NCBI GenBank assembly: GCA_964036195.1
Contig: OZ038453.1
Location: forward strand, 18,265,206-18,329,205
Direction of reading: 5' to 3'
DNA length: 64,000 nt
From: Sphaerolaimus hirsutus
Taxonomy: Eukaryota > Nematoda > Chromadorea > Monhysterida > Sphaerolaimidae
Made by a program: the position numbers and the translations under genes
Notes under the pieces: generated by a model
What the model was told of the DNA's origin: nothing
What the model saw: only the letters and a program-made list of their open reading frames with translations
Databases searched by the model: none
Shown: piece by piece, positions 1 through 64,000 of the stretch
Numbering within the stretch: position 1 is the stretch's first letter
Layout of the letters: every line of letters starts with the position of its first letter

Positions 1-440
1 TTTTGGTATCGGGATCGGGATTGGTTTTTGAGATTTCGGGATCGGGATTGACCTTTCGGGATCGGGATTGGCATTTTTTGGGATCGGTAATGGCATTTTT
101 GAAAACATTCTAATATACACATTTTTTGCCAATGTTTTCACAAAACAGGCTCAAAAACACGTCTGGATGCCAGAAAAGAGGCATAAAGTGGACATTGGTT
201 AAAATTTATTAATGCAAAAAGGGCATTTAATGAGGTTGACCAAATTTTCTGGGATCGGGATCGGGATTGTATAAATTTTTTCGGGATCGGGATTGTGATT
301 TTGAAAGTTTCTGGATCGGGATCGGGATTGGCTTTTGAGATTTCGGGATCGGGATCAGGATTGAGGTTTCAGGATCGGGATCAGGACCACCAAATCCCGA
401 AATGTTTTGGGATCGGGATCGGGATTCCGTTTCGACCCTA
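1..440. mobile_element. GGGATC-word hAT-like element, left end outside window
   Basis: Continuous GGGATC/GGGATT words on this strand end in CGACCCTA at 440, a slightly changed version of the TTTGAACCCTA end seen in complete copies at 1569-1821, 2520-3048 and 17433-18004. The left terminus is outside the window, so no target duplication can be tested. No protein is credible; the arginine/aspartate-rich translations come from the repeat word. Confidence 0.8.
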
Positions 441-581
441 GTGCCAACCCTATCCAATATACATAATCACTATTGTCTATTGACCGAAGTTGATGCTGTA
501 CAGAGAATGTAACTAATTATAACTTGTCATAAAGTTGACATCAAAAATTGTCATCAATTATATCTTGTCACACACACTAGT

Positions 582-1060
582 CAGGGGTAGGAAAGGGGGG
601 GTTCCCCCCCCAAATCGCCCAGCTATCTATCTATTCCAGAGGCCGCTCAGCTATCTATCTATCCCGGAGGCAAAATTTTGGGCTACTATCCCCTAAACCC
701 CTCCCCCCAATCGGCCAGCTATCTACCTATCTGGAGCGATTTTTGGGAAACTATACCCTAATTTTCGCCCAAAATCGCTATTGTCATACCTATATATAGA
801 TTTTCACCTCCAAAATCACTAGTTCGTGCATCTAACTGCCTATTTTGAGCTATTTTTAGTACTATATGTCCTTATATACCCATTTTTAGCCATTTTTCAC
901 CTACTTTCAGCAATTTTTCTCCTTTTCCTCCCTTCTATGCCTATATATTGAGCCCCCGCGAACCCCCCCCCCCAGAAAAATTTTCAGCTATCTATCCCTC
1001 CGGAGGAGTGATTTGCTATCTATCCAACACCCAGGAGGGCCGAAAACTAGAATACCCCTG
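582..1060. mobile_element. CAGGGGTA-ended hAT-like element, 8-bp TSD
   Basis: It starts CAGGGGTA and ends TACCCCTG. The flanks 574-581 and 1061-1068 both read ACACTAGT, a perfect 8-bp duplication as hAT transposases make. The interior repeats CAGCTATCTATCTAT words and C/G runs. A relative lies near 30552-31061. No transposase is encoded. Confidence 0.88.
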
Positions 1061-1124
1061 ACACTAGTTGACATCAAAAATTGTGTCAACTAAATTTTGG
1101 ATAATTATTGGTTTTACTTGGCAG

Positions 1125-1388
1125 CAGGGTTGGCAAAATCTCAGAAGAAAAAAAATCAAATACAATTTTTATACAATTTTACTACAATTTTAGTAAAAAG
1201 AATTTCACAAAAACTAATCCTGGTCACAAAGAATAAAAAACAAAAATAAAATAATAATAAAATGGAAAATTGAAGAATAAAAAAATAAAAATAAAATGGA
1301 AAATTGAAGAAAAAATAAAAATAAAATATAATTTATTTACAATTTTACTGCAGTTTCAGTAAAAATAATTTTACTAAAACCAACCCTG
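1125..1388. mobile_element. CAGGGTTGGC-ended hAT-like element, AAAATAAAAT word
   Basis: Ends are CAGGGTTGGCAAAATC and AAACCAACCCTG. Both flanks (1117-1124, 1389-1396) are CTTGGCAG, a perfect 8-bp TSD. The inside is almost only AAAATAAAAT/ACAATTTTA words. Related copies are 10534-11984 and 31270-32358. Confidence 0.9.
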
Positions 1389-1568
1389 CTTGGCAGACGC
1401 TACAGTGTATGCACAACTTCATGTGTGCAGTGGCAAAAAGGATGAAAATTGGGGTTAAGGGTGACTTCTAGTGAAAATTATGGTCATCGTTTTCAAAAAT
1501 ACTTACTTTTACATTTTCCCATGGAAATAAAAGTAAAAAATTCTACTATACGTTTTCTGCACTCAGGA

Positions 1569-1821
1569 TAGGGTTCAAACGGGATCCCGATCCCGATCCC
1601 GGATCCCGTGAAATTCCGGGATTTAGCAGTCCCGATCCCGATCCGGATCCCGAAACCCCAATCCCGATCCCGATCCCGATCCCGAAATCTCAAAATACCA
1701 ATCCCGATCCCGATCCCGATCCCGAAACCCCAATCCCGATCCCGATCCCGATCCCGAAATCTCAAAAAGTGAATCCCGATCCCAATCCCGATCCCGAAAA
1801 GTCAATCCCGTTTGAACCCTA
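1569..1821. mobile_element. GGGATC-word hAT-like element, complete
   Basis: TAGGGTTCAAACGGGA at the left and its reverse complement at the right form terminal inverted repeats. ACTCAGGA is duplicated perfectly at 1561-1568 and 1822-1829. At 253 bp this is the shortest complete copy; its interior is GATCCC words, with one GGATCC block per end. Confidence 0.92.
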
Positions 1822-1904
1822 ACTCAGGAGTGACTAAAAATGAATATTTTACATTAACTTTGAAAACATTGATTACTTTCAACAATCTGGTTTGCAGGCA
1901 TGCT

Positions 1905-2475
1905 TAGGGTGACAAATTTCCGTTTTGGTTTTCTGCAGGCAAATTTTTTCCATTTTCCATTCCGTTTTCCGGTAATTGAATTAATTTTTCCGTTTTCCGT
2001 TCCGTTTTCTGACTACAAAATTTTTTTCCATTTCCGTTCCTGTTTTTCTGGCTAATTATCCCTTTTCTGGCTAAATTTTCAGTTTTTCTGCCTTTTTCCG
2101 GCTGAATTTTCAGTTTTTCCGGCTGAATTTTCAGTTTTTCCGCCTTTTTTCCGTTTTCAGGCTCAATTTTCAGTTTTTCAGCCTCATATTCCCCTTTTCT
2201 GGCTCAATTGTCTGTTTTCTGTTTCAGCCAAACTGGTAAACATGCATGCAGGTTTTCAATTATGTGACTTTTTCCATTTTCCATCAAAATTTCAGCAATT
2301 TTTAGCATTTCCAGGAAATTTCCACAATTTTTTTGTTTTCTGGCAAAATTTCATTTTTCCATTTCCAGTTTTCCGGCCTTGTTTTCCTTGTTGCTGAAAT
2401 TTTATTTCCGTTTTCTGGCAAGTGCAAAAAAATTTCCGTTTCCATTTTCCATAACAAAATTTTTTTGACACCCTA
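1905..2475. mobile_element. CGGAAA-word hAT-like element
   Basis: It begins TAGGGTGACAAATTTCCG and ends TTTGACACCCTA, with interior TTTTCCGTTTTCC words. The flanks GGCATGCT and GGCACGCG match at six of eight bases, a decayed TSD. Intact-TSD copies of the family are at 8712-9353 and 20407-20724. Confidence 0.82.
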
Positions 2476-2519: not shown

Positions 2520-3048
2520 TAGGGTTCAAACGGGATCCCGATCCCGGATCCCGTGAAATTCCGGGATTTACCAGTCCCGATCCCGATCCTGAAACCCCAA
2601 TCCTGATCCCGATCCCGAAATCTCAAAAATACCAATCCCGATCCCGAAAGTTTTCAAATCCCGATCCCGATCCCGAGAAACTCCCAAGTCCGGGATCCCG
2701 ATCCCGGAAAAATTAGTGGAAATTATAAAAAGTGAAATAATGACGTTTTTGCATGCAAAAAAGTGGATGCAAACCCCCAGCATCAATTTTATGCCACTTT
2801 TCTGGCATCCAACAGTGTTTTGAGACCTTTATGAACAACTGTGAATGCCAGAAAAATGGCCAAAATTTCTATCCCTAGAACCCAATCCTGATCCCAGAAA
2901 AATGCCTATCCCAATCCCGATCCCGTGACCCCAATCCCGGCCAATCCCGATCCCGAAATCTCAAATTACCAATCCCGATCCCGAAATCTCAAAAAGTGAA
3001 TCCCGATCCCGATCCTGATCCCGAAAAGTCAATCCCGTTTGAACCCTA
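2520..3048. mobile_element. GGGATC-word hAT-like element, complete
   Basis: Terminal repeats are TAGGGTTCAAACGGG and its complement. CTCATGTA is duplicated perfectly at 2512-2519 and 3049-3056. A non-word core near 2700-2870 (ATGCAAAAAAGTGGATGC and following) recurs at 7330-7480 and 17640-17790, so this long subfamily has a conserved unique centre. Confidence 0.92.
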
Positions 3049-4102: not shown

Positions 4103-7100
4103 CTGAAAAAAATGTGCCATAAATATTTCTTCTGCTTTACGAGCGCTTTTCTATATTTGACCGCATTTTACTGCTTTTTTATTGGATGGTGCTGGTAAAT
4201 TTTCTTTAATTTTTTGGAACTTTACCAGCGAATCACAAAAAAAACGCGTAAATATTTCTTCTGGTACATAGGCGCTTTTCTATTTTGTTCCAGCATTATA
4301 GCTGCTCTTCTATCGGAGGGTGTCGTTCTATTTGCTTTCAATTTTTCAAAATTTCCACTTCCAAAATGACATTCCAACTTTCAGACGACACCGGACGAGT
4401 AATTTCCGCGACCCTCAAAACTCGACTCGACACTTGTCAATATGTGAAATTGGCCCCTGCACGATGTCGTTCAGCGTAGACAAAGTTACCCCAGCCAATG
4501 GAATCAATATGGGGGTGCGTCGATTGTGCGAATCGGACACTGCGGGGGGGGGGTGTTTGATGTTAATTAAAGGGACCAATTTTAATTGGGAGGGCACTGA
4601 TAAAAGGCACTCGAAATTTTGTTTGTCAATGAAAATTCGGAAGGGTTGGTTGAGTGTAATTTGGGACCGCACCTGATTTTTCTATACTCAATAAACTTTT
4701 CTATAAAATCAAAAGCCAAATATTTTAGTAGTAATTCACTAGAATTTTTGGTCTGATAATAATAGAATCTGATAATAATAGAATTTTTTGGCAGAAGTCA
4801 CTACTTATATGATATCCCATACATACATATATTATGTACCACTTCGTACGGATTTGTTCTTGCTTTACAAATACCACATATTTCGGACATAAAAATTTTA
4901 TTCGAATATTTAATTATTTAATTTGAATTCATTCTAAAAACCAAGCAGTATAAAAATAAATTTTTCATCACTTACCTCTACCCATCATTTGACAAAAAAA
5001 AACATAAAAAACCGCAGAAAACCCCCAAAATACTCAAAATCCACTCACAAATTCCCAACAGGATCGAGACAAACAGAGAGGGTACCATAAGGCACAAACT
5101 GGAATACAAATTGATAGTATACGCCTCACGTTTGAGTTGAGCATCGTGCCGCACCAAAGACATGTTCGAACACAGCAAAGGGTCGTGATTAGCGTATCTG
5201 ATAATAAGGGGGTGGGTTGGGGGTAGGGATCGAAAACAACGTTTTTTTCAACGACCCCCCCCCCCCTAAAAACCAGAGCTTTTTAAAACAAAACCGGTTT
5301 TAAACGTTTTTCTAAAGCTGGAGCCACAGGGTAGCATTATAAGTGGTGATTTCTGTCAGAATATAGTTACCGTATTTCCTCGAAATACCCCGCCCCCTTC
5401 GTTGAACCCCCCCCCCCCCTCAAAATTTCCATTCTAAAACAATCACCCGGGCTGAATTTTGAGGGAATACTGTCATTTAGTTTATGCAATTTTTGGATAC
5501 TTTTCCTTGAGTGGGTGCAAAATTACCTTACATGTTCAATATCTATTTTTTACCTTTTATTCGTCCAGTAAAGACGTTCAACACAAACAACTGGGGAGTT
5601 TCATTCCAAAAACGCATATATCCACAATTTTCAATTTTTCAAAATCGCATTTTAAAGTTCGACGATGGCCCGACAACGCTATGTTTGGGCGACAAAGCTT
5701 GCCTTGCACTTTTCAGATAGATCTGACATTTCTTTACAATTTTTGTAACCACAAATTTTGTTGGCCAACAAATATTTAGGGAGTTATGTGAGATTTTGTA
5801 AGTCACCCAAAATTGGGAACAAATTTGAACATTTGAAATTGAATGTTAAACAACTTCTCAACAGTGCATCGTAGGCAAAAACGCTTTACACGACTGCAAA
5901 GCCCGTGTCTAAAAGTACCTCTACCTAAATTTTCAGGTCAATATATACACGCATATTTAGGGTTGGAAAAAAAACGTTTTTTCGATGTTCGATGTTTTTT
6001 CGAAAAACTCGACGTTTTTTTATATAAAAAACGTTTTTTTTAAAGCTCCCAGATATGACCTTGTGTCAACATATATAGGTATATCAGACAGTGGCAATAC
6101 TCTGTGATGTTATATATAGGGTTCAAACGGGATTGACTTTTTGGGATCGGGATCGGGATTCACTTTTTGAGATTTCGGGATCGGGATTCACTTTTTGAGA
6201 TTTCGGGATCGGGATTGGGGTTTCGGGATCGGGATCGGGATTGGTATTTTGAGATTTCGGGATCGGATTTTGAGCACTTTGAACTTTCACCAAGGCCGTA
6301 TCCAGGGGGGGGGGCGGGGGGGGCTGCAGCCCCCCCCCCTCCCGGGGCGAGACCAGAAAGTGACCGGAAAATGCGACTTTTTCAATGTCAGCGTAAAAAA
6401 TTTTGCGCGCAAGCGCGCATTCTTCACCATACATAAAGGTATTATCATCTCATTTGCTCCATGTGGCCGCAAATCGTTGTAAATAGACTCAATGTTGTGC
6501 TTTTTGCTGTTTTGTGTGTATATTTACATACATATACAGCGTTCCATGGCGCTGACGCCAACGCCAATAGCGCCATGGCGTGGCGCCTACTAATGGCGCC
6601 AGCGCCATAGCGCCATTCCGCCACTATTTAGCTAAAATTTTAGGGGGGGGGGCTGAGCCCCCCCCCCCTCGCCGGCCTCCGTAAACAAGCAGCCCCCCCC
6701 GCTCAAAAATCCTGGATACGTCCCTGACTTTCACCTACCGCTCATAAAATAACCACATGAAGAACAGTGCATACAGATAATCAGAACATAAAAATGAAAT
6801 GTACAGGTCATTATGATCATTTTAAGCATTCATAGGTGAAAATCGGCAGAGAAATGGCCATGATATAGAGTTTTGAATTTGCATGCTTTGTTCTTCATGC
6901 GGTAATTTATATTTATGGTTTGGGGGTGGAGTGCTGTATAGGGTTGGAAAAAAAACGTTTTTTTTAACTCGATGTTTTTTTTAAAAAAAACAACGTTTTA
7001 AAAAAAAACGTTTTTTTTTAATTAAAAACGTTTTTTTTAAAAGCTCCCAGATATGACCTTGTGTCAACATATATAGGTATATCAGACAGTGGCAATACTC

Positions 7101-10100
7101 TGTGATGTTATATGTAGGGTTCAAACGGGATTGACTTTTTGGGATCGGGATCGGGATTCACTTTTTGAGATTTCGGGATCGGGATCGGGATTGGGGTTTC
7201 GGGATCGGGATCGGGATCGGGATTGGTATTTTGAGATTTTGGGATCGGGATCGGGATTGGCCGGGATTGGGGTCACGGGATCGGGATCGGGATTGGCATT
7301 TTTTCGGGATCGGGATTGGGGTGTAGGGATAGAGATTTTCGTCACTGTTCTGGCATTCACAGTTGTTCATAAAGGTCTCAAAACACTGTTGGATGCCAGA
7401 AACGTGACATAAAATGGACGCTGGGGGTTTGCGTTCACATTTTTGCACGCAAAAATGTCATTTTTTAACTTTTTATAATTTTCACTATTTTTTCCGGGAT
7501 CGGGATCCCGGACTTGGGAGATTCTCGGGATCGGGATCGGGATTTGAAAGTTTTCGGGATTGGTATTTTTGGATTTCTGGATCGGGATCGGGATTGGGGT
7601 TTCGGGATCGGGATCGGGACTGCTAAATCCCGGAATTTCATGGTATCCGGGATAGGGTTGGAAAAAAAACGTTTTTTTTTAACTCGATGTTTTTTTAAAA
7701 AAAACGTTTTTTTTTAAAAAAAAACGTTTTTTTTTAAAAAACAACGTTTTTTTTAAAAAGCTCCCAGATATGACCTAGTGTCAACATATATAGGTATATC
7801 AGACACTGGCAATACTCTGTGATGTTAAATATGACCATATAATGGCTGTGGAGCCATGGGATAGCATTATAAGTGGTGATTTGTGTCAAAAATATCCATT
7901 TTTTGTCGACATATCATTCATATATCGCCTTATAGTCGAATGTTCGTGACTTCAGGTAAAGTTTGGCACGGAATGGTGATCAAACAAGGTTATAAAAGGA
8001 GGTTGTTACTTTGGGAGTGAAGTTACACACTGTGGAGGTACATGGATACACATTACCTCAATATTATATATTACAGCAACATATGTCGGCTTATTCACCC
8101 ATGGTAGCACATAGAAATGGATGTTTTGATACTAAAAATGCAACAAAACCAATGAAAACAACCACCAATGTCAATTTGTGTGTGAAATTGCGCGCTTGCG
8201 CGCAAAAATTTTGCAAAATACCTAGTGCTTAGTACTAAAAATTTCGGCCGATGTTTTTAAAAAAAAAAAAACATTTCGGACATCATGTTTTTGTTTTTTA
8301 AACGTTAAAAAAAAAAAAAACGTTTAAAAAAAACATCGGCCAACCCTAATCCGGGATTGGGATCGGGATCCCGTTTGAACCCTAGTTATATATGACCATA
8401 TAATGGCTGTGGAGCCATGGGATAGCATTATAAGTGGTGATTTGTGTCAAAAATATCGATTTTTGTCGACATATTGTTTGTATATCGCCTTATAGTCGAA
8501 TGTTCGTGACTTCAGGTAAAGTTTGGCATGGAATAGTGATCAAACAAGGTTATAAAATGAGGTTGTTACTTTGGGAGTGAAGTTACACACTGTGGAGGTA
8601 CATGGAAGCACATTACCTCAATATTATATAGTACAGCAACATATATGACGGCTTATTAACCCATGGTAGCACATAGAAATGGATCCTTTGATACTAAAAA
8701 TGCCACAAAACTAGGGTGTCAAAAAACTTTTTTTTACAAAAACGGAAACGGAAAAAAATTTTCAGCGGCCGGAAAACGGAATGGAAAACGGAAAAAAATT
8801 TGCACTTGGCGGAAAACGGAAACAGAAAAAAAATGTCAGCGGCCGGAAAACGGAAAAAGAGGCCGGAAAAATGGAAACGGAGAAATCAAATTTGCACGGA
8901 AATGGAAAAACTTTCTGAAATTTTGCAGGAAAACGGGTAAAATTTGCTGAAATTTTGCTGGAAGTGGAAAAAATTTGCAGTAATTTTGCTGGAAACAGAA
9001 AAAATTTCACATCATTGACAATCTGCATGAATTTTTACTAGTTTGGCTGATCAGAAAACAGAAAGTTGAGCCAGAAAAAGGTAAAATGAGGCGGAAAAAT
9101 GGAAAATTGAGGCGGAAAATGGAAAAAAGGTGGAAAAACTGGAAATTGAGGCGGAAAACGGAAAAAATGCGGAAAAACTGAAAATTTAGCCGGAAAACGG
9201 AAAATGAGCCGGAAAAACGGAAACGGAAAAAAAAGTTGCCGGAAAACGGAACGGAAAAAGGAAAAAAAAATTCAGCAGCCGGAAAATGGAACGGAAAACG
9301 GAAAAAATTTGCCTGCGGAAAACGGAAACGGAAAACGGAAATTTGACACCCTACACAAAACCAATGAAAACAACCACCAATGTCAATTTGTGTGTGGAAT
9401 TGCGCGCTTGCGCGCAAAAATTTTGCAAAATACCTAGTGCTTAGTACTAAAAATTTCGGACGTCATTTAAAAAAAAAACATTGGCCAACCCTACCATATT
9501 TCTCCGATCAAAGCCCCCCCCGTTCAAAGCTCCCGGGGTGCTGTGCTGGGTATTATGTTCCGTATAAAGCATCCGGGTGCTTTACATTTCACAAAAAAAA
9601 ATTTGGTGATCATCTGTTGCCTCACCTAAATGATATTGCAGAGAGGAAAGTTTGGAAGACCATCTGTTGCATATGAGTTTTTTTGCGTGGTGCGCGGCGT
9701 TCTCTGTGCACACCTATGCCTATTTAATTGCATTGCGTGGCGTGTGGCGTTCTTTTGTGTGCTGCAGCGAAATCAAACAGTTAAAGTGGTGCTTGAGTTC
9801 AAAGATTTGTGGGTCGTGGGATTGTTGCAAAAGCATTGCAACCTTACTAATCACATATTTGCAACACATAGTTAGGTAGATACAACTTTAAAAAGGAAAA
9901 TAGAGAGTCATGGTGAAGGCAAATGATCACACTTACCTAATTATTTATCGGTGTCAAACAAAACATAGTATAGCACCGTGATTTGCATTGCACCAGGGTG
10001 CTATACATGGCACTTCAAAAGTAGTTTGAAAATAGCTCCAATTTTGTAAAGCACCAGGGGTGCTTTCATCAGAGAAATACGGTACGCATATTTGATTTAT

Positions 10101-12767
10101 AGTGCAAAATAGATTTGGAAATTCATGTATGCATTTTTTGGAAATGAAACTTTATTTTGTATGGGAATTCCGGCCAGCTCTTCGCGGCCGCTCCGAAGCA
10201 CGCGTGCATTTTTGGAAATGAAACTATTTTTTGGATATGTGCATTTTCGATATGAAACTAAGGCGGTCTGAGATGGATTTATGCATTTTCGATGTGAAAG
10301 TCCTGTTTTTCATAGGGAAATGGTCATGGATATGTGAACTTTCGATGTGAAAATTGTGATGTTTTTGAAAATCGGTACCACTGTATCTCGGGAACGAAAT
10401 GGACTATAACGCTGATTTTTTTTCTAAAATGTGAAAAACTATACATGGAGGTCAAATCCACGCTGAACTCGATTTTTCTGGATTTGGCGCATGTGAACTT
10501 TTGGAATGGAACCACCCAACTGTTTCCCACAACCAGGGTTGGCAAAATCTCAGAAAAGAATAAAAAATAAAATTAAAATAAAATGGAAAATTGAAGAATA
10601 AAATAAAATGAAATAAAATGGAAAATTTCAACAAAAAATAAAAACTATAAAAATTAGAATTTTTGTAATTTTTTTGTAAAATTGTATACAAATTCATATT
10701 TTTGTAAAAATTGTATAAAAATTCATATTTTTTGTAAAAAAATTTTCTGTTGTTTATAGTTCAACCTGTTCATTCGCGGAGCTGGGGCAGTCCCAAGCCA
10801 TGTAAAGTGTCAAAATGTCATATGAAATGGAATGGAAAGTGTCAATTTTCATGAAAATGTTAAGTAAAGTGTCAATCGTCATGACACATATATTAAAGTG
10901 GAAACTGTAAAGCAAATTGTATCCAAATCTTATCTTTTGTATCCAAATCTTGTTGTTTCTGTAACCAAATCTTATGTGAACATTTGGATCAGGGACGTAT
11001 CCAGGATTTTTGAGCGGGGGGGGCTGCTTGTTTACGGAGCCCGGCGAGGGGGGGGGGCTCAGCCCCCCCCCCCAAAAAATTTTAGCTACATAGTGTCGGA
11101 ATGGCGCCATGGCGCTGGCGCCATTAGTAGGCGCCAAGCCATGGCGTCATTGGCGTTGGCGCCAGCGCCATGGAACGCTGTATTTGTATGTAAATATACA
11201 TACAAAACAGCAAAAAGCACAACATAGAGTGTATTTATAACGATTTGCGGCCACATGGAGCAAACTTGATGATTATACCTAATGTCAGGTGAAGAATGCG
11301 CGCTCGCGTGCAAAATTTTTTACGCTGACGTTGAAAAATTCGCATATTCCGGTCAATTTCTGGTCTCGGCCCGGGAAGGGGGGGGGGCTGCAGCCCCCCC
11401 CGCCCCCCCCTGGATACGGCCCTGATTTGGATACAAAAACATAAGATTTAGATACCAAAATATAAGGTTTGGATACCAAAAGATTCAGATACACAATTTA
11501 CACTCTGCACAACATTTGTAATGACAATTATACTTTGCTTGACATTTGAGATGCCAATTGACTCTTTACTACATTTGTCATGACAATTGACACTTTGCAT
11601 GATGTTTTACAAATGTGCCCAGCACACTCCAGTAATCCTTCTACTGAAAATGCGAACCATTCTTATCGATAATTGTAACTTAACACTTGCAACCAGCTAA
11701 CAATACCTACTGCATGCAACTTTTGCAAAGTAACGGAAAAATTTGTCACACGTTTTTCATGTTTAGGTCTAATTATCACATTTTTCTGACCTTGCATGCA
11801 AGATTCTGATTTTTTGTAAAATTTCTGTAAAATTTTTGTAAATTTTTTGTAAAATGGTCCATTTTATTATTTTATTATTATTTGGAATAAAAAAAATGAA
11901 ACAAGAACAAAATTAAAATAAAATACATTTTTATACAACTTTTATACAATTTGTATACAAATGATTTTTATAAAACCAACCCTGCCCACGACTATCGAAA
12001 AACACCGAACAATCCAATAAAAATGAAGTTGTAGCTATTCAAAATCTTCAACCCCCCCCCCCCCCCAATAAAAAAAACCCTCACTTCTGCAAGCACAGTT
12101 TATACAGCGTGAGCGACTGGAACAGGGGGAACCGAATAAAACTGGTAGCGTGTAGAACAAAACCACTGGCTCCACGCCAATTACGCCGCACAGACGGCCG
12201 CATCTGCAATTTGAATTTGAGTTGCCCGATTTTTCGGGTAACCCGATTGAGGGTAATAGGGTTTTTTATGATATTTTTCCGATTCGGGTTGCCAAATTGG
12301 AGTGGAATATGTTGGAATACATTGGAGTAAAGTAACAGTCCATATAAATACATTAGAATATGGGAAATTATATGTTAACCGTGAAATGTGAACACGCGCA
12401 CACTGCGAAAAATAATCCATCCGTCCAAAGATACTAGTCACCCAGTTTTTGCAACCGAAAAATAAAGCCGACCGACAACACCCAGACAGAATCTAGTGGA
12501 ATTGGCAAAGTTCCAAAAAAACGTTGAAAAATGAATAAATCAGGGCAAATGCCATAATATTTTTGAATCATCAGCACCGATAAATACATTTCCAACGTGC
12601 TCCAGTCGGAAAAATGTCGGGCATCTAAAACCACTTTAACAAAAGATCGGGAAACCCGAAAAATCCGTCGGACAAATAAAAAAGTCGGGCAACCTTTTCA
12701 AGCAGCTAGGGGCAGCCTCATTACCTCCCTGCAGCCCGGTTGTATTTTGGGTGTCGCCGCCATTCAT
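3908..12767 (-). CDS. SLC46-like major facilitator transporter, first five exons (3' partial)
   Basis: This is a multi-pass membrane carrier resembling the SLC46 group (the proton-coupled folate transporter family); substrate cannot be told from this part. Exons on the minus strand are 12694-12767, 12085-12203, 5049-5197, 4434-4539 and 3908-4102. All internal junctions chain in phase and give about 214 residues of a family usually near 450. Landmarks in order are GVEPVVLFYTLPVLF (transmembrane 1), YKLCLQK and DPLLCSN (cysteines of the first outer loop), MVPSLFVSILLGI (transmembrane 2), LSDSHNRR (MFS loop 2-3 motif), TPILIPLAGVTL (transmembrane 3) and YWLLLTDLIFGFCGGYTA then FAYASDLAKG (transmembrane 4). 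The C-terminal half must lie left of the window. Intron 2 (6.9 kb) is mostly transposons. Exon 2 needs one extra base in a C run to stay open. The family call rests on motif recall, not a search. Confidence 0.82.
4434..4539 (-). CDS. Transporter exon 4
   Basis: The acceptor is a C-run ending GCAG. The exon reads (L)SDSHNRRTPILIPLAGVT and on to SHID. The donor CAA|GTGTCG is weak but is the only GT that gives the two leftover bases exon 5 needs. The LSDSHNRR stretch matches the conserved loop between transmembrane segments 2 and 3. Confidence 0.78.
4540..5048 (-). other. Transporter intron 3
   Basis: AT-rich spacer between two well-supported exons. No transposon ends were recognised. The neighbouring intron 4 (4103-4433) carries a local near-duplicate word, TAAATATTTCTTCTG, at about 4115 and 4247, each followed within 25 bases by GCGCTTTTCTAT. 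Confidence 0.6.
5049..5197 (-). CDS. Transporter exon 3
   Basis: The acceptor is ATTATCAG and the donor ATTT|GTGAGT is near-consensus. It codes YANHDPLLCSNMSLVRHDAQ and then the second helix ending SILLGI. The last base T joins TG of exon 4 to give Leu before Ser-Asp, so the helix-to-motif junction is exactly where the family has it. Confidence 0.84.
5198..5957 (-). other. Left part of transporter intron 2
   Basis: No exon was seen. A truncated TA-type element (CCGTATTTCCTCGAAATACC, from 5371) with C runs lies near 5260-5460. The remainder is AT-rich and unassigned. Confidence 0.5.
6291..6726. mobile_element. GGCCGTATCC-ended hAT-like element
   Basis: Ends are CAAGGCCGTATCCAGG and CCTGGATACGTCCCTG. 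ACTTTCAC is duplicated perfectly at 6283-6290 and 6727-6734. The interior has GGGGGGCTGCAGCCCCCC palindromes and a GGCGCC-rich segment at 6543-6616. A sibling is at 10990-11424. Confidence 0.9.
7653..8348. mobile_element. TAGGGTTGG hAT-like element, complete copy
   Basis: Ends are TAGGGTTGG and CCAACCCTA. ATCCGGGA is perfectly duplicated at 7645-7652 and 8349-8356, within the terminal word of the host GGGATC element. At 696 bp it is the least interrupted member of this family here and serves as its reference. Confidence 0.9.
8712..9353. mobile_element. CGGAAA-word hAT-like element, complete
   Basis: TAGGGTGTCAAA and TTTGACACCCTA ends, with CACAAAAC perfectly duplicated at 8704-8711 and 9354-9361. 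The uninterrupted host sequence (GCAACAAAACCAATGAAAAC) is visible at about 8138 in the sister element, giving a pre-insertion site. Confidence 0.92.
9494..10082. mobile_element. TA-type element with GATCAAAGCACCC word
   Basis: CCATATTTCTCCGATCAAAG at the left and GAGAAATACGG at the right lie between TA dinucleotides. The centre contains GCGTGGCGTGTGGCG words and the phrase GTGGGTCGTGGGATTGTTGC. An inverted copy of about the same length is at 25332-25922. Short translations through it are shared by both copies but are not family proteins. Confidence 0.85.
10093..10525. repeat. Degenerate GCATTTTCGATGTGAAA word array with a GC-rich insert
   Basis: The words GCATTTTTGGAAATGAAACT and GCATTTTCGATGTGAAA recur at least five times between about 10130 and 10350. 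A GC-rich stretch of about 45 bases at 10161-10205 interrupts them and contains GAATTC, GCTCTTC, GCGGCCGC and ACGCGT sites. No gene was seen. Confidence 0.5.
10534..11984. mobile_element. CAGGGTTGGC hAT-like element, long form, interrupted
   Basis: Ends are CAGGGTTGGCAAAATCTCAG and AAACCAACCCTG. Flanks CCCACAAC and CCCACGAC match at seven of eight bases. AAAATAAAAT arms enclose a unique core (TGTCAAATG words and GTTTGGATACAAAA words) shared with 31270-32358. The element at 10990-11424 is inserted in the core. Confidence 0.88.
10990..11424. mobile_element. GGACGTATCC hAT-like element nested in 10534-11984
   Basis: CAGGGACGTATCCAGG and GGATACGGCCCTG ends, with ATTTGGAT perfectly duplicated at 10982-10989 and 11425-11432. 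The sister host at 31270-32358 has a single CGTTTGGATACAAAA at about 31778 and no insertion, so both occupied and empty sites are visible. Confidence 0.93.
12085..12203 (-). CDS. Transporter exon 2, with an apparent one-base frameshift
   Basis: The acceptor is AAATTGCAG and the donor CAGAA|GTGAGG. The first part reads CGRLCGVIGVEPVVLFYTLP and the last part LFQSLTLYKLCLQK. Both segments match the SLC46 N-terminus (VEPVV..YT, then YKLC), but they are in frames offset by one. The shift falls at the five-G run 12125-12129 (plus strand); one extra base there would restore a single frame that fits the phases of exons 1 and 3. It may be an assembly error or a real lesion. Confidence 0.75.
12204..12693 (-). 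other. Transporter intron 1
   Basis: A 490-base intron. It carries scattered ATCGGG/CCCGAA words near 12230-12290 and 12640-12690 but no clear element ends. No other gene was seen. Confidence 0.55.
12694..12767 (-). CDS. Transporter exon 1 with start codon
   Basis: ATG at 12767 in the context GGAAAGATGA starts MNGGDTQNTTGLQGG, followed by EAAPSCLK. The hydrophilic, uncleaved N-terminus suits a cytosolic tail. The donor AAAAG|GTTGCC leaves two bases that give Arg with exon 2, so the tail runs into CGRLCGVIGVEP. The donor is imperfect, and an alternative at GGAG|GTAATG breaks the phase. Confidence 0.68.
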
Positions 12768-24339: not shown

Positions 24340-24347
24340 ACACTCAC

Positions 24348-31061: not shown

Positions 31062-31269
31062 CCCATGAAGACCCAGTGCTCAAGTATGGGGCTGTACCAA
31101 AGCACCAGGTCTACATTGGCACTGCAATGGCTACTTGTTCAATGGGTAAACTTATGCACTGGGTTCTAGCTGTTTTAACAAGTAAAGAGTTGACAGCGTG
31201 CATTGGAAATATAGTTACCAAATTTTGGTGAGAAAGTCATCCGATAAATTCTGTGGGGATCATCACACA

Positions 31270-52166: not shown

Positions 52167-53059
52167 TAGTGATGGAAAAGCGCCAGAAAAAAGGGCGCCA
52201 GGCGCCAATGGCGCCATGGCGCCATTCAGAAAGTGGGCGCCAAGCGCCAAGGGCGCCATGGCGCCATTCGGAAAGCGGGCGCCAGGCGCCAAAGGCGCCA
52301 CGGACAGAGGGCGCCAAGCGCCAAGGGCGCCATGGCGCCATTTGAAAAATAGGGCGCCAGGCGCCTAGGGGGCCAGGCGCCAAGGGCGCCAGGATAAATA
52401 AGTGCATACAACACCCTGCGTGTGCTAAAAGTGTTTCTACAGCACCCTAGTACATGCATTCACTACTTAATTTGCGTTCTCCAGTGTGTAATGAACAAAG
52501 ACAACACTAGAAAACAAAAAAATTCGAGTAAAATTCACATGACAATTCAAACACAATGGATATTGTCATTTGACAACAATCCATTCACTTCAAATAGACT
52601 TTTCCAATCAATGTTTCCTCGAAATGGACAAAAAACGGAATTGCAACGATTTGAATCCGTTGATTCATGATTTTGCAAGTTCAACGTTCCATCATTCTCG
52701 TCTTCTGATCTGTCAGACACATCTGATGAACCGTTGCACAAAAGATTTATACCCACTCACACCACTTCGTCCATATTTCTGGCGAATTCAGATCATCCAT
52801 GGATGCGTTTTTCATCTTTTTTTTATTTATACAACACTCACATTGAAACCCTGCTGGCGCCTTTTTGGCGCCCTTTAAAAGCAGGGCGCCAGGCGCCAAG
52901 GGCGCCACGGAAAAAGGGCGCCAAGCGCCAAGGGCGCCATGGCGCCTTTCAGAATGTGGGCGCCAGGCGCCAAGGGCGCCACAGAAAAAGGGCGCCAAGC
53001 GCCAATGGCGCCATGGCGCCCTCAAATGGCGCCAGCGCCATGGCGCCATTCCATCACTA
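52167..53059. mobile_element. GGCGCC-word hAT-like element, complete
   Basis: TAGTGATGGAAAAGCGCC and GGCGCCATTCCATCACTA ends; CTACTCAG perfectly duplicated at 52159-52166 and 53060-53067. Both arms are GGCGCCAAGGGCGCCATGGC words; the centre (52395-52850) is ordinary AT-rich DNA, perhaps captured. Confidence 0.92.
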
Positions 53060-53893: not shown

Positions 53894-54134
53894 TCTGCCA
53901 CAGCTGGTTCCAATCCCACGACCTGTGAAATGCCCTGTTAGATGTCAAATGTCATGCAAAGTGTCAACAGTCATGTAAAATGTCCTGGAAAATGTCAAAT
54001 GTAATGCAAATTGTCAAAAGTCACGTATAATGCGCTGCAAAATGGCTATTTTTTCATGGCATTTTACATTACTTTTGACACTTTGCCTGACATTTGACAT
54101 TTTACATTTTACATCTGGGACTGCGCCCTGCATG
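53894..54134. mobile_element. TGTCAAATG-word element
   Basis: GCTGGTTCCAATCCCACGAC and TCTGGGACTGCGCCCTG ends, with TGTCAAATGTCATGCAAAG words in both orientations around AAAATGGCTATTTTTT. No target duplication was seen. Confidence 0.75.
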
Positions 54135-54703: not shown

Positions 54704-55927
54704 TAGTGATGGAATGGCGCCATTGGCACTGGGCGCATTTTTTCTGTGGCGCCATTGGCGCCTGGCGCCCACTTTCTGAAAGGCGCCATGGCGCTCTTGG
54801 CGCTTGCGCCGTCTTTCTGTGGCGCCCTTGGCGCCTGGCGCCCTACCCAAAATGGGCGCCAAAATAGCGCCCGCAAGGTTTCAAGGTGAATCGCAGCAAA
54901 AAATGGTGTGTGGATGCGCGGTGAAGCGTCGGGAAGTGTCTTCACACCAACACTTCCCGAACGCTTCACCAAGCATGCCAGCGCTCACACACATCACAAA
55001 GAAATGCGTGAAGCCACTTCACGCTTATTAATATGGCGCTCCCACGCAAATTTATACGCGGGGGAAGCGTGTGGCAGTGCCAGCGGCGTGAAGTGTCTTC
55101 CACATGTTTGGATGCGCGTGTAGCGCACGGTGAAGCTAGGTGAAGCGTGTGGAAGACACTTCACCCAGAATCTCGTGGTGTTGGTGGAAGAGTGTGGAAG
55201 TGCGCCGCTTCACGCGCATCCAGCCCGCTTCCACACGCTTCACGGATCTATTTTTTGCTGTGATGTGGAGTGAATGATAAAATATAATAAAAAATGAAGA
55301 AGCGCGTGCGCGGATAATAGAAATTCGCCGCAAAAATGGACGGAGTGGTGCGATTGGACTAAAATCTTGCGCCCAACAGATCCATCAGCCACATCTGATG
55401 GATCAGAAGCTGGGAATCATGGGCTCTTGATCTCTTAAACTCGTAAATCAACTTATGCAAATCATCGCAATAAAGTTTTTGTCCATTTCAAGAAAACATC
55501 AATGGGAAAAGGGAAGTATATGTTGTTTACCATTTTACAGAGTATTATACCTATATGACTATTCACACCTTGCATGACATTTGACACTTTACAGGGCATT
55601 TTAAGTGAAAGAACACGTGAAATGTGTGCAGTACGGTGCTGAAGTAATATTTAAAGACAAAGGCAGGGTATTTTATATCTATGTATTCTATTCTGGCGCC
55701 CTTGGCGCCTGGCGCCCTATTTTCCAAATGGCGCCCTGGCGCCCTTGGCGCTTGGCGCCCTCTTTCTGTGGCGCCATTGGCGCCTGGCGCCCACTTTCTA
55801 AAAGGCGCCATGGCACCCTTGGCGCCCTTTTCCCGTGGCGCCCTTGGCGCCTGGCGCCCAGTTTCCGAATGGCGCCATGGCGCCATTAGCGCTTGGCGCC
55901 CTTTTTTCTGGCGCTTTTCCATCACTA
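54704..55927. mobile_element. GGCGCC-word hAT-like element, with a GTGAAGCGTG tract inside
   Basis: TAGTGATGGAATGGCGCC and TTTTCCATCACTA ends; GTGCCGTC perfectly duplicated at 54696-54703 and 55928-55935. Arms of GGCGCC words lie at 54716-54875 and 55694-55915. Between them, 54905-55250 is a separate tract of GTGAAGCGTGTGGAAG and CTTCCACACGCTTCAC words. Confidence 0.92.
54905..55250. repeat. GTGAAGCGTGTGGAAG word tract
   Basis: At least ten variants of GAAGCGT/ACGCTTC or GAAGTGTCTTC occur on both strands. G+C content is high. No ends with a target duplication were recognised; it may be a nested element whose ends are degenerate. Confidence 0.7.
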
Positions 55928-56560: not shown

Positions 56561-57337
56561 CAGAGTTGCGAAAGTGTATTTACACTTACCCGAAATGGGT
56601 AAAAATTTACACTTACCCAGGTAAATGGGTATTTATATTTACACTTACACTTACACTTTCATAAAATACCCATACACTTTTTTTACACTCTCCTGGGCAA
56701 AATACCCGGGTACAGAAAGTGTATTTTTTCCTTTCATATGGCCCTGTTTTATGCTTTTGAGAAAGCATAAAATACGGTCATGTACAAAAAATGCATTGAA
56801 TGTAGAAAATATGGCAAATGTACAAACTAGCCTTTGAGATACAACCTTTGATCAGTACTCATGGTATTCTACAGTTTCATCATACTTTTGTAAAAAGAAC
56901 AAGATAAATTGAAATTCACCAGCTGGACACAAAGTCAACTTTTGCATTGACATTTGCTGCATGTCCATTCTTGCATTTAAACAGTGTGTATCGCATTGCT
57001 TAATCAGTAAAATATCAACACTGAAAAAGTGCCATTATTAGGGAACTTCATACCACTACAGTATTTGTTACAGTCTGAAATGTTTCATAAAAGGCTGTAA
57101 AATGTGAAATAATGCATGAAAATGATAAATAAATTGATCTAAAGGTGAGAACAGCGGTGTTTTCTAAAGCTCAACAGTGAGAGCTCTTTCTAAAAATTTT
57201 TTACACTTACACTTTTTTACACTTTCCTAGGTATTTTTAAAATACCTTACACTTTTGGTATCCATACTCAAAATTTGGAAAGTGTATTTACACTTACACT
57301 TACACTTTCCAAAAATACCGGTATTTTAACAACTCTG
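56561..57337. mobile_element. CAGAGTTG hAT-like element
   Basis: CAGAGTTGCGAAAGTGT and TATTTTAACAACTCTG ends; CTCGGCGG perfectly duplicated at 56553-56560 and 57338-57345. TTTACACTTACACTT words form both arms. It is inserted in the first bases of a CGGACATCACACT family element that continues at 57346. Confidence 0.92.
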
Positions 57338-58271: not shown

Positions 58272-59222
58272 TACGTTTACTCTGAATAAGTACAGTAGTT
58301 TTAACAACTCTGTAAACAAAACATCTTAGTCAGGCGAAATGCTTAACGTAACCCATTGTTTAAAAGTGAGCATTGTGTGCACAGTAGAAGTTAAACTTGA
58401 CTTGAACAAGCCACTTAACTTTTATCGGATTTACGTGATGTTTTGAACGCACTTTGTTTTGGACCACTGGGCTGACAACGACACCATGTAAAGTGACAGA
58501 TTTCAGATATGGCTTCAAAGACGGCATCTGAAACGTAATTTGCCATTTACTGTATTACCTCCTATTGTAGGCATACCTCCAATATAAGGCACCCTCAAAT
58601 TGAAGGCACAGTTTTTGGTCTTTTTAGAATTAAAGGCATAATACCTCCAATAGAATGTACCTATATCTCCAAAAAAGGCACAGCTGGCTGCATTCCAAAA
58701 TGAGTCAAATCATAAAAACGGCGAACACCGTTGAAAATTGTGCCGTATGACGCCAAGACAACTCTGTGCAACGTGTATTAGGCCTGGTGCCAGTTCTGCA
58801 AAATGAGAAGTGAGAAGTGAAATGGCAAAGGCGAAGTAAAAGCGCAAAGGCGAAGTGAAATGGCAAGTGAATTGACAAAGCGAAGTAAAAAGATAAAGAA
58901 AAAGTCATTTCTCTTCGCTTTTGCCATTTCACTTGCCAATTTTCTTCCCATTTCACTTCGCCTTTGCGCTTTTACTTCGCCTTTGCCATTTCACTTCTCA
59001 CATCTCATTTTGCGGAACTGGCACCTGGTACACCATTTTGTTACATTCCAGTTCGATGAAATGAATTGCGTTGTTGTTCACTGTTGATTGAATGTTTGCA
59101 AACTCTGGTGAAAACAATTGAAGGTACTCTCTAATGAAAGGTGCCCTCTAATTGAATGTGAATAAGTGATGAAATCAATTAAGGGTATACCTACAATTGG
59201 AGGTAAATAATACAGTAATCTT
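58272..59222. mobile_element. Decayed TATAAGG-word TA-type element hosting a CTGGTGCCAGTTCCGC element
   Basis: TATTACCTCCTATTGTAGGC (about 58552) to GGAGGTAAATAATACAGTA (about 59214) is a worn 18190-type copy. Inside, 58786-59030 has CTGGTGCCAGTTCTGCAAAA and TTTTGCGGAACTGGCACCTG ends and GAAGTGAAATGGCAAAGGCG words in both orientations. Confidence 0.75.
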
Positions 59223-59422: not shown

Positions 59423-59978
59423 ATGTACCGCATTTGCTCGAACAGTTCCCTTCATGAATTATTATTACGTCAGACTTTTTTGAGGGGGAACTATTCAAGG
59501 AGGGATATTATTCAAGGGAAAAATAATTATTTCATCAAAATTGTCAAGCGTGTTTCTATGAACTCATTTTATGAAACATGCTTTATTAATAACATTACAG
59601 GCCATTTTTATTCAAATTATACACAACTGGGGCCAGTTCCGCAAAATGAAAAGTTAGAAGTGAAATGGCAAAGGCGAAGTAAAAGCGCAAAGGCGAAGTG
59701 AAACGGCAAGTGAATTGGCAAAAGCGAAGTAAAAAAAAAGAAAAAAAGAAATTTCTCTTCGCTTTCGCCATTTCACTTGCCATGTCACTTCGCCTTTGCG
59801 CTTTTACGTCGCCTTTGCCATTTCACTTCTCACTCCCCATTTTGCGAAACTGGCACCAAGTTTACCATATGCCTAAAGGGGGAAAAATTCGAGGGGCGGA
59901 ATTATTCTTCCTCACGCGCCAGGGGGAATTATTCAAGACGGAGAATTTTTAAAGGGGGGGTTAATCAAGCAAATACGC
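59423..59978. mobile_element. TA-type element with TTATTCAAGGG word, hosting an AGTTCCGC element
   Basis: CCGCATTTGCTCGAACAGTT and TTAATCAAGCAAATACGC ends. It hosts 59631-59855, a GAAGTGAAATGGCAAAGGCG-word palindrome with GGGGCCAGTTCCGCAAAATG and CATTTTGCGAAACTGGCACC ends. Confidence 0.8.
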
Positions 59979-61008: not shown

Positions 61009-62250
61009 GATAATGAAATTCTCAATCATTTTGGAAAACAGTTTTGTCAAATCAGTTTACCAAAATGGTCTAGCAGATCATAATGGTAACATAGTGTGTG
61101 TGTACTCGGTGTGTTTGTAACTGGAATTTTTCAACACTCTAAAATGATCTCATAATTTACTACAAGTATTTTATTTAGAAGTTTCCTTGTAACTTACCAC
61201 CTCACACTTTTACACTTTCAGAATCAAGTGTCATGTCAAGTGACAAATGTCAGACACACTTTTCAAATTACGGGTACTTAAACCACTTGTCAATTGTCTA
61301 ACGCATACTGGTGCCAATTCTGCAACTGGTCAAGTGTGAAGTGACCATAAGAGTATAAATTGAATTTAGCATTGGTAGGACTTGACAAGTATATTCCAAA
61401 TTATAATACTTGTCACTTACATAATTAATCAATACGAAATCTATTAGATATTCTTCAAAATATCCCCAGGGGTTGTATTTTTTCAGAGTGCAAACTATGA
61501 GGGGGGGTTATACGAGGGCGAGTGTTTTTCGAGGGGGTATTTTGAGGAAATACTTTACTTAGAACTATACTAGTCACTTGCCACAATGGGGGCACCTATT
61601 TGGGAAGTCAAACGTGCTAATTTCAATCTATTTCCAAAAAAGTCGGGCTGCCCGACAGAAAACTAATTCGGGCAAATTAAATCCCACCACCGCACTATTA
61701 ATCCGACCGCAATTTTCCAATGGCACAATGGGATTTGGGGAAATTTCTCTCGGAAAATCTTCACAACCTTGACTTGACCGTCCTTGAAGTTGGGCAGGCA
61801 GGGAAAATGAAATGTTTCTGTAAATTGATGTTATGTATCATTGTTGGAAATTGGAAAGTCTGCGGGTCCGTATTTATTTGTTTTGAAGTGCGATTTTTGT
61901 CGCGCGATAATCCATCTCATTTTCGCATTTTTTTGCGAAACTGCGTGTTTTTCGTTTCCGCGTTTTTGATATCATCGCGTGGATAAAATATATTATGGTA
62001 ATGTTTGTTATTCGTCTGATTTCTGCCGTGATGACTGTCAAAAGTTCGCCGTAAGTGTGATAAATTTGCCTTTCTCTTCAAAAAAATTATTCATCTATTT
62101 GATATCTCGTAAATAATGAGTCAGCTTAATGTGATAATCAGTGGTGTAAAAGCGCCATGGAACTGAAAATGGCGCCAAGGGAATAGCAGTATGGCTCCAT
62201 ACTTTTTTAAACAAATAAACAAAACATTGGTCCCGGGCCGAAGATTCGAG
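61009..62250. other. Unassigned DNA with small element pieces
   Basis: 61195-61425 has AAGTGTCATGTCAAGTGACA words with TGGTGCCAATTCTGCAAC, a relative of the CTGGTGCC family. 61445-61555 is a TA-type fragment. 61720-61986 is open on the plus strand (VGNWKVCGSVFICFEVRF) with no family. 62140-62182 is a minimal GGCGCC remnant. Confidence 0.4.
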
Positions 62251-62430
62251 ACCCTGTGTTTTTACCCTGTCGCGCATTTACTTTTTGAAGGTATTTACCC
62301 TGATCCCATTTAACAAAACAAATATTTACCTTACATGTTGTAAATTTACCTTGGTAGGGTATGCATTTACCCTGGAGGTAAGTTTCAAGTGGCAAAAATT
62401 TACCTTCACATGAGTGGATTTACCCCCATA
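62251..62430. repeat. ATTTACC word array, one orientation
   Basis: At least eight TTTACC occurrences (TTTTTACCCTG, GTATTTACCCTG, AAATTTACCTTGG, GCATTTACCCTGG and others) lie in about 180 bases, nearly all on this strand, unlike the palindromic arrays elsewhere. Confidence 0.6.
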
Positions 62431-62748
62431 ATCAAGTATAGGGAGGTGAACTCAAAGGCATGATTCATAAGTACCTGTGTCTGTTTGGTGCATTTTCATG
62501 TGTGCAGATGAGTGCAAATATTCACTATGTAGACAGAGACATTTAGTGCACAACAAGTAAATATAAGTACATAAATAGGACATTCTCATTAGAAAAAATA
62601 TTTGTGCAATGTTAAAATGCAGATATATAAGCAAGCATAAGCATTTGGCATAAGAAAACTAGTCTAATTCAACACCAAGCGACAACGACAAAGCTTCCCC
62701 AATGCTGCTGCCAGCCTGCACAGATTTGCACAAATTAATGCACTGTAT

Positions 62749-62904
62749 GTGCAAATCGAAATTTCGATTTGAAAAAATTACTGTATTTACATGTGCAAAT
62801 TGAAATTTCGATTTGCACAAATTACTGTATTAACATGTGCAAATCGAAATTTCGATTTGCAAAAATTACTGTATTTACATGTGCAAATTGAAATTTCGAT
62901 TTGC
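62749..62904. repeat. 44-base tandem repeat carrying a palindrome
   Basis: Units start at 62749, 62793, 62837 and 62881 (3.5 copies). Each contains CAAATYGAAATTTCGATTTG, a palindrome or near-palindrome of 20 bases, then an AATTACTGTATTTACAT spacer. Confidence 0.92.
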
Positions 62905-63693
62905 ATCTCTCTTTTTTTCTATCGAAATTTTGAAACATATTAAAATCATTTCTGCACCTATGTGAATATTTAATTGATACCTAATTGTTCAAAAAAGTGA
63001 GAAAGCTGGTGCTTTCTGCACTCTCTGCATTAAATTTCAAAACACCATTTGAAACACTTTTGGCGTCAGGCGCCAGCCAATCTTATGGCGCCTTTATCAC
63101 CACTTGTGATGAATCTTTTATTTTGAGTTTCATTTCTATTTGATCCCAAAACATTTGTGGCAGATTTGATCTATTCAGACACATTTAAGGCTAATTTTTC
63201 TTCCTACTGTTAAACCACAAATAATATCAACATTGAATGTAAAAACTTCCCCATTTTCATCCATAAATAGAAGTATTTATACAAATTTACTGTGAATATT
63301 TTGAATCTTTTGAAAAGGTTTCAGAACCAAAGGTAACAACAGGGTTCAATCCTAAATTAAGTCAAGTGATGTTTTTTTTGACAAATTTTCAAATGTATTT
63401 TAATTACCTAAAGGGTATGAGTATAAATATGAAACTTAAATTTTCACTTGAGAGTACATTTGAAACTTTAATTTTCACTTGACAGCACATATTTTATGAA
63501 ACTTTACTTTCAAATTTACAATCTGGAATTATACTTGACATTGTGTAAGATTGGCACCTTATGATTGGGCAAAATGAGCATAAAAGCATTCATCACAATA
63601 TGTATGCATTTCATGTAGTTGTCAGATTTTGATTCACACCAGCTTATCAGTGCATTCAAGTTGGGAGTTTTGGAAACTTGAATTTAAGGTATC
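62905..63693. other. Unassigned AT-rich DNA
   Basis: A GGCGCC remnant (GGCGTCAGGCGCC..TATGGCGCC) is at 63061-63092 with ATCACCACTTG after it. Near 63425-63510 the words GAAACTTWAATTTTCACTTG recur twice. No gene was recognised. Confidence 0.45.
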
Positions 63694-63946
63694 TGGACCT
63701 GGTGCCATTTCCGCAAATTGAGACGTGAGAAGTAAAATGGCAAATGCGAAGTGAATTGAAAGAAAATTGGCAACAGCGAAGTGAAATGGCAAGTAAATTG
63801 GCAAAAGAAAAATAATAAAAAAATAGAAAAAGTAATTTCCCTTCGCTTTTGCCAAATTCCTTCTCAATTCACCTCTCACTTCTCATTTCACTAAGAATTT
63901 ACCATTTTACTTCTCACTTCTCAACTTGCGGAACTGGCTCCTGGTT
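63694..63946. mobile_element. CTGGTGCCATTTCCGC element
   Basis: CCTGGTGCCATTTCCGCAAA and TTGCGGAACTGGCTCCTGG ends, with GAAGTGAAATGGCAA words in both orientations and a TAATAAAAAAATAG centre. Third full member of the family, with 58786-59030 and 59631-59855. Confidence 0.85.
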
Positions 63947-64000
63947 TTGATTTCTGTTTGCAAAGTTCTTTACAAAAATTTTGAAATACTAAACGGCTTT

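Follow-up and report, generated by a model that had tools for sequence, protein, structure and literature searches.

The window analysed here, i.e., a stretch of 64,000 bases (38% GC, 200 N) from contig OZ038453.1 of the nematode Sphaerolaimus hirsutus, harbors numerous short transposable elements within which a short word, different from family to family, is repeated in arrays. In the families resembling hAT transposons, with a probability of roughly 0.7, these arrays would represent enlarged subterminal transposase-binding repeats, carried by gene-less elements and grown by tandem duplication. The predicted binding role is suggested by the position of the arrays near both element ends, by the class of the motifs, by a polarity resembling that of Hermes, and by the slower divergence of the words.

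A first-pass annotation of this DNA had described a single design, in which the terminal inverted repeat contains a family word that recurs on both strands of the interior. The catalogue assembled by eye and with a duplication scan (44 elements, 26 family labels; Table 1) disclosed instead three kinds of families: hAT-type elements (F; 25 elements, 14 labels), elements flanked by TA (P; 12 elements, 10 labels), and foldbacks (G and G2; seven elements). The ten words originally listed belong to F1, F3, F2, F7, F4, F9b, F8, G, G2, and P2; seven of them reside in hAT-type families, one in a TA-flanked, CCGTA-ended family, and two in foldbacks located at CCWGG, so that the hAT label does not suit the words of P2, G, and G2. 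A strict scan of the window, in which the 8-bp duplication had to be exact and 10/12 or more end bases had to match, returned 44 start-end pairs, many of them redundant (lying in large inverted repeats or in arrays of AAACGTTT or GGCGCC), whereas six composition-matched controls returned 0, 1, 0, 1, 0, and 0. The target-site duplication (TSD) is perfect (8/8) in 20 of the 25 hAT-type elements, 7/8 in three, and 6/8 in two. The inverted ends of hAT elements start with the consensus YARNG; TAGGG, CAGGG, CAAGG, TAGTG, TAGCG, TAACG, CAATG/CAACG, CAGAG, and TAGAG conform to it, while TAGCA (F8) and CACTA (F13) do not.

All ten words are present, and each is found at higher density within a single family of elements with recognisable ends than outside them, shorter forms of some words having been used for these densities. 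CGGGAT occurs 160 times in the window, 151 of which fall inside F1 elements or partial F1 copies (59.6 vs. 0.15 per kb); 87 of the 91 GGCGCC lie in F3 elements and fragments (assigned by eye), and 62 of the 111 CGGAAA in F2. The remaining words are found inside the elements of their own family in 13/27 (TTCGAA), 8/28 (AAAATCTC, F8), 15/25 (AAAATAAAAT), 6/10 (TTTACACTT), 7/14 (AATAACTCCC), 9/22 (TGTCAAATG), and 7/7 (GAAGTGAAAT) cases. The most abundant interior 7-mer exceeded all 60 dinucleotide shuffles in 42/44 elements (two of the 42 marginally) and Markov-resampled controls in 36/44 elements vs. 19/85 outside windows of 400 bp, some of which hold fragments of catalogued elements. An excess of at least 5 over the highest Markov control was reached by twelve elements, belonging to F1, F2, F3, F9b, F5, F4, and F8, and was small elsewhere. 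The word arrays are real: they are strongest in F1 (CGGGAT), F2 (CGGAAA), and F3 (GGCGCC), and less so in F9b, F5, F4, and F8; hence, about seven families show a very strong excess and the remaining ones a modest one.

The words are also linked to the element ends. In 19 of the 26 families, the terminal 8-mers are densest in the family's own interior, and the observed sum was not attained in any of 20,000 permutations; the ranks are not independent, some P families having sequence in common. The own terminus ranked second in F9 and eighth in F10; F6, F13, P8, P9, and P10 also failed (ranks in Table 1). The proposal that the inverted repeat contains the family word was borne out in part: it is weak or fails in F6, F10, and F13, and the F2 word lies close to one end only. 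The match between termini and interiors fits the idea that the word of each family may reflect the taste of a different transposase.

The position of the words was mapped in 50-bp bins in F1, F2, and F3. The F1 copy at 17433 contains 4, 5, 5, 4, 0, 0, 0, 3, 6, 4, 5, and 2 words per bin, and the F3 copy at 52167 contains 3, 4, 4, 4, and 2, followed by eight empty bins and by 1, 4, 5, 4, and 2. The F2 copy at 8712 shows a similar pattern, while the one at 20407 is filled along its whole length. Repeats at both ends are therefore clear in F1, F3, and F2 8712, where the arrays occupy about 200 bp per end and the middle is word-free. Ac requires about 200 bp per end, with the transposase site AAACGG present in hexamers repeated near both ends (PMC3260210); Hermes requires about 220 bp and Tol2 200/150 bp (PMC10368747); and Tgf2 bears 17 and 18 repeats at its ends, the same source regarding subterminal repeats as a feature that defines the superfamily (PMC4890040).

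Strands were counted, with words chosen by hand for each family, in 17 of the 24 F and P families (all except F3, F5, F6, F7, F13, P9, and P10) and in G and G2. A bias of at least 4:1 toward one strand was observed in 6/9 hAT-type families (F1 111:11, F2 62:0, F9 5:1, F9b 3:13, F10 8:0, F12 7:0; the others being F4 46:14, F7b 3:8, and F8 5:7) and in 7/8 TA-type families (P1 4:1, P2 13:1, P3 6:1, P4 10:0, P6 7:1, P7 8:0, P8 1:4, vs. P5 9:10). The statement that words occur on both strands is hence true of the foldbacks (13:13 mirror-image words in G2, 9:8 in G), F8, P5, and partly F4 and F7b, and fails in the other families counted. The arrays of F1 and F2 consist of direct repeats; GGCGCC and TTCGAA are palindromic words, but the GGCGCC spacers have the same orientation in both arrays, left and right, of the aligned F3 copies. 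In Hermes, whose BED site is AAG(T/C), repeats 2-7 of the left end are antisense and repeats 1-5 of the right end are sense, and asymmetry between the ends is reported to matter for activity (PMC10368747); the one-strand bias resembles it if the Hermes repeats are read as one element strand.

As for the motif class, CGG or CGC is the usual preference of the CGG-binding proteins derived from hAT, several of them favouring GCGC and some AT-rich sites, and the motifs of four measured hAT proteins match the subterminal regions of their own elements (PMC8097297). AAACGG occurs 17, 15, and 7 times in the F2 copies (2.5, 2.3, and 0.7 expected), and GCGC 39, 44, and 5 times in the F3 copies (9.7, 13.3, and 1.1 expected). 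The families share with maize Ac/Ds the 8-bp duplications, the short ends, the non-autonomous copies, and AAACGG within the F2 word; unlike in Ac/Ds, each family has a different word, and whereas in Ac/Ds the demonstrated need is for only about three hexamers (PMC3260210), F2 carries 12-29 CGGAAA words per copy. The CAGAG ends of F9 and F9b and the repeated subterminal sites recall Tol2/Tgf2. The left end of F9 was the best of 88 ends against the left end of Tgf2 (PMC4890040), with 6/2000 Tgf2 shuffles scoring as high, a figure uncorrected for picking the best of 88. In contrast to Tol2, Tgf2, and Hermes, F9b has a longer word (TTTACACTT), AAGT is weakly enriched, and no transposase gene was seen in the parts of the window scanned.

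The comparison of copies provides information on the age and growth of the arrays. Four F1 copies, each with a different duplication, can be aligned across their arrays at homologous positions, with gains and losses of 6 bp, indicating that the arrays predate the insertions and are still changing by tandem steps; the F1 word columns are 92-100% identical between copies (mask taken from one copy per pair). The spacer order is shared by two F3 copies at different sites. Together with imperfect tandem periods of about 14-40 bp, the 6-bp unit changes reveal tandem growth; the runaway amplification postulated by the first-pass annotation, like selection for growth, is only presumed. Moreover, words were less diverged than spacers or other columns in 23/24 comparisons, eight with p < 0.05 (24 of 30 pairs were used, six having too few columns). 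When F1 was compared with the diverged copy at 1-440, differences amounted to 58/445 in words, 79/362 in other repeated 6-mers, and 70/223 in the rest (three pairs summed). Among the three close F1 copies the advantage of the words is small or absent, the corresponding values being 7/176 vs. 6/156 vs. 3/150, 15/186 vs. 20/171 vs. 13/125, and 10/209 vs. 16/180 vs. 10/124.

On this basis, the words are probably docking sites for the N-terminal BED finger of the hAT transposase of each family, and each word would follow the specificity of its own transposase. The multiplication of subterminal repeats by tandem duplication would yield dense, mostly one-directional arrays; more sites would raise the local occupancy by transposase, and one-strand arrays would make the two element ends unlike, as in the asymmetry of Hermes. 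Such arrays may then have spread by winning or holding scarce transposase.

Several observations weigh against this interpretation. The catalogue is a non-random sample, 19 of the 85 outside windows also exceeded their controls, and the terminus-interior link was not found in F6, F10, and F13. Because their abundance is a consequence of the words, AAACGG and GCGC document a resemblance rather than provide an independent test, and among ten words a degree of coincidence with short motifs already known is to be expected; AAACGG is missing from F1, and AAGT shows no clear excess in F9 (10 vs. 7.6) and a mild one in F9b (20 vs. 12.6). The Tgf2 match has the limit given above. Strand bias is also explicable by tandem duplication alone, and the lower divergence of words can be explained by repeat homogenisation or by the aligner pairing words with words. 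Copies are reused among the 24 comparisons; between the two closest F1 copies (2520 and 17433), divergence is slightly higher in words (0.040 vs. 0.029); and the strongest p value (F3, 5e-8) includes non-array columns, the arrays alone giving 0.073 (left) and 0.025 (right). Lastly, no transposase was detected above the Pfam cut-off in the parts of the window scanned, i.e., ten open reading frames, two frames of 7801-18301, six of 3049-5951, four of 11985-13691, six of 20725-22784, six of 44945-50002, and three of 60280-63703. A weak BED zinc finger match at 9368-9673 (+), with E 0.015 and 15.7 bits, fell below the cut-off of 20.6 and was not used; it runs into a TAGGGTTGG-type end. Matches in the window to a regular expression for the hAT C-terminal motif were judged chance-like by eye.

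A different origin that deserves attention, though we consider it rather unlikely, is passive satellite birth, in which slippage and unequal exchange multiplied an end sequence inside gene-less elements, with no binding role, and the copies were spread by ordinary transposition. The 6-bp indels between F1 copies, the imperfect periods of about 14-40 bp, and the strand bias are all compatible with it, and tandem repeats borne by miniature inverted-repeat transposable elements are known (a Xenopus study cited in PMC2872659). Against it speak the location of the F1-F3 arrays near both ends rather than anywhere, the resemblance of the words to known hAT sites, the lower divergence of words than of other repeated 6-mers against the diverged F1 copy, and the recurrence of the design with different words. 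Microsatellite growth after insertion, unrelated to transposition, is hardly credible: the short unit and the unit-length indels would agree with it, but it is contradicted for F1 and F3, whose arrays are common to copies at different sites (at homologous positions in F1, with conserved spacer order in F3); it is still conceivable in families seen once. The first-pass annotation had named such late growth as an outcome that would speak against its proposal.

It is likewise very unlikely that the arrays serve the production of hairpins or small RNAs, or the binding of host proteins silencing or protecting the elements. The G2 foldback at 58789-59022 does form a near-perfect hairpin (z -25), the F3 copy at 52167 folds with z -10 (20 shuffles), and CGG-binding host proteins derive from hAT (PMC8097297); against this, the F1 and F2 arrays are direct repeats, and the F1 copy at 17433 reaches a z of -4.9. 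The small-RNA idea of the first-pass annotation could therefore apply to foldbacks and less to F1. Overall, transposase binding gives the best account of the hAT-type arrays, and on that point the earlier proposal is probably right.

The P elements are flanked by TA on both sides in 12/12 cases, having been selected by TACCGTA-like ends. Their tip is CCGTA (variants CTGTA, CCATA, CCGCA, and GCGTA), while the inner half of the terminus is family-specific. A near-constant tip joined to a family-specific, repeated inner terminus suggests the logic of the hAT-type families with another transposase. The TA target and the C-tip followed by a CCTCGA..TTA-like stretch are presumably pogo/Tigger-like, and a transposase of this type probably moved the P families; unlike what we take to be the pogo/Tigger arrangement, the inner half varies among families and recurs inside the element. 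A text search of open-licence PMC papers for pogo/Tigger-like end strings returned only seemingly unrelated papers. A common 17-bp unit was considered and rejected, the best lag being 16-18 in 6/12 P elements; the families may be related.

The foldbacks have ends like GCCAGTYCC located at C(T/A)GG. CTGG or CAGG precedes 10/10 recognised left ends and is found at 6/9 right ends; an identical 5-bp CCWGG occurs on both flanks in 3/7 foldbacks, CCTGG/CCTGT in one, and three are less clear, so the target duplication is apparently a 5-bp CCWGG. Foldback and Galileo elements of the P superfamily produce duplications of 7-8 bp and use a THAP transposase; a duplication of 7-8 bp was not found in the seven catalogued foldbacks. 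Like Galileo/Foldback, G and G2 have inverted ends with internal repeats, and in Galileo more than one transposase site was detected by footprint and electrophoretic mobility shift assay (PMC3688188); Galileo inverted repeats measure 0.5-1.2 kb, whereas G and G2 are foldbacks of about 0.2 kb at CCWGG.

Further searches and features complete the picture. Rfam at gathering cut-offs gave no match. The F1 end had 13 matches in one scan of viral contigs, in unrelated contexts and without word arrays, and none in two other scans; among 39 loci of a bacterial and archaeal scan, none had any of the four element ends tested, and several had short CGGGAT runs. A possible diverged GGCGCC element lies at 62140-63105, with ends CAGTGGTGTAAAAGCGCC ... 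GGCGCCTTTATCACCACTTG and no clean duplication seen. The region 12226-12690 is rich in CCCGA/TCGGG, has matching ends (GTTGCCCGAYTTTT), and is perhaps a further CGG-word element. The stretch 5959-7300 contains two instances (about 5959-6275 and 6940-7300) of an F1 start preceded by a TAGGGTTGG-type end, which suggests a segment duplication or a hybrid element. A large palindrome at 15916-17144 has arms 15916-16176/16884-17144 (94%) and 16321-16536/16549-16764 (94%, 12 nt between).

Table 1. Transposable elements recognised in the window, with TSD or flanking bases, words per strand, and distinctive features.
Element	Position	Strand	TSD or flanks	Words	Features
F1	1569..1821	-	ACTCAGGA 8/8	22:2	hAT-type; word CGGGAT/GGGATC; ends TAGGGTTCAAACGGGAT; short copy
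F1	2520..3048	-	CTCATGTA 8/8	24:3	
F1	7115..8384	+	7/8 (8/8 if start 6117)	30:3	split by F5 7653-8348
F1	17433..18004	+	ACCGTGGT 8/8	35:3	~200-bp array at either end
F1 relative	1..440	+			diverged, truncated by window edge; aligned
F2	8712..9353	+	CACAAAAC 8/8	29:0	hAT-type; word CGGAAA/AAACGG; ends TAGGGTGTCAAA
F2	20407..20724	+	GTTAAGAC 8/8	21:0	short copy
F2	1905..2475	-	6/8 only	12:0	old copy
F3	52167..53059	+	CTACTCAG 8/8		word GGCGCC; ends TAGTGATGGAA; array near either end
F3	54704..55927	-	GTGCCGTC 8/8		array near either end
F3	50605..50743		GTACACAC/GTACAGAC 7/8		diverged short copy
F4	1125..1388	+	CTTGGCAG 8/8		word AAAATAAAAT; end CAGGGTTGGCAAAATCTC; short copy
F4	10534..11984	+	7/8		holds F6 insertion 10990-11424
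F4	31270..32358	+	ATCACACA 8/8		inside F8
F5	7653..8348		ATCCGGGA 8/8		rich in AAACGTTT; ends TAGGGTTGG
F6	6291..6726		ACTTTCAC 8/8		ends CAGGGMCGTATCCAGG; negative case without own word array; own-terminus rank 18/26
F6	10990..11424		ATTTGGAT 8/8		F3-like fragment
F7	19247..20156		ATGGCTAT 8/8		word TTCGAA; ends TAACGATGG (family end TAACGATGGCAAA); nested P2
F7	27455..28141		GCTGCAGC 8/8		word excess not above shuffles
F7b	42668..43868		CCCCTGGT 8/8		word AACTCA; ends CAAYGATGG; nested P1
F8	30045..32729		ATCACACT 8/8		word AAAATCTC; ends TAGCATTGAA; nested insertions
F9	23846..24340		CACTCACC 8/8		end CAGAGTTGTTA like goldfish Tgf2 (family end CAGAGTTG)
F9b	56561..57337		CTCGGCGG 8/8		word TTTACACTT; ends CAGAGTTG
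F10	28221..28439		6/8	8:0 (CCGA)	ends TAGGGTTGGGAA; terminus-interior test negative
F12	582..1060		ACACTAGT 8/8		word CTATCTA; ends CAGGGGTA
F13	51414..51609		AGTATACT 8/8		long inverted ends; negative case; own-terminus rank 8/26
P1	43133..43591		TA/TA		CCGTATTTCCTCGAAATACCCC; ends 20/20
P2	19741..19918		TA/TA		word AATAACTCCCC
P2	20920..21353		TA/TA	9:1	
P3	18190..18628		TA/TA	6:1	word CTAATATAAGG
P4	53275..53727		TA/TA	10:0	word GCCGTTCTATT
P5	9494..10082		TA/TA	5:5	AAAGCACC
P5	25331..25922		TA/TA	4:5	
P6	33937..34247		TA/TA	7:1	word AATAGAAGG
P7	34894..35324		TA/TA	8:0	word GGTCGC
P8	57903..58271		TA/TA	1:4	own-terminus rank 3
P9	58550..59215		TA/TA		nested foldback within; own-terminus rank 4
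P10	59428..59978		TA/TA		nested foldback within; own-terminus rank 3
G	15232..15395		CTGG adjoins left end		word TGTCAAATG
G	22785..23008		CCAGG either side		word TGTCAAATG
G	40074..40312		CCTGG / CCTGT		
G	53909..54125		CTGG adjoins left end		
G2	58789..59022		CCTGG either side	5:5 (mirror)	word GAAGTGAAATGGC; near-perfect hairpin
G2	59632..59854			4:4 (mirror)	
G2	63704..63938		CCTGG either side	4:4 (mirror)	

Repeated transposase sites near element ends are known in hAT, Galileo, and other systems; what is unusual is their density and the number of families lying side by side. None of the papers listed by a text search for the element ends was on transposons by title, and searches of open-licence PMC papers brought up no account of a genome in which numerous families each bear dense arrays of a word of their own. 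A tentative extension, which we regard as possible but doubtful, is that in one genome the gene-less elements of three or more unrelated cut-and-paste systems each converted their ends, independently, into dense arrays of the site of their own transposase, array size being a weapon in a race for scarce transposase. The words would in that case constitute a fossil catalogue of transposase specificities, legible from DNA alone. A genome with many families bearing arrays of different words would allow such specificities to be predicted from DNA, and would offer a test of the competition of gene-less elements for transposase through the multiplication of its sites. Were the rule to hold for TA-flanked elements and CCWGG foldbacks as well, it would be a general one and not confined to hAT.

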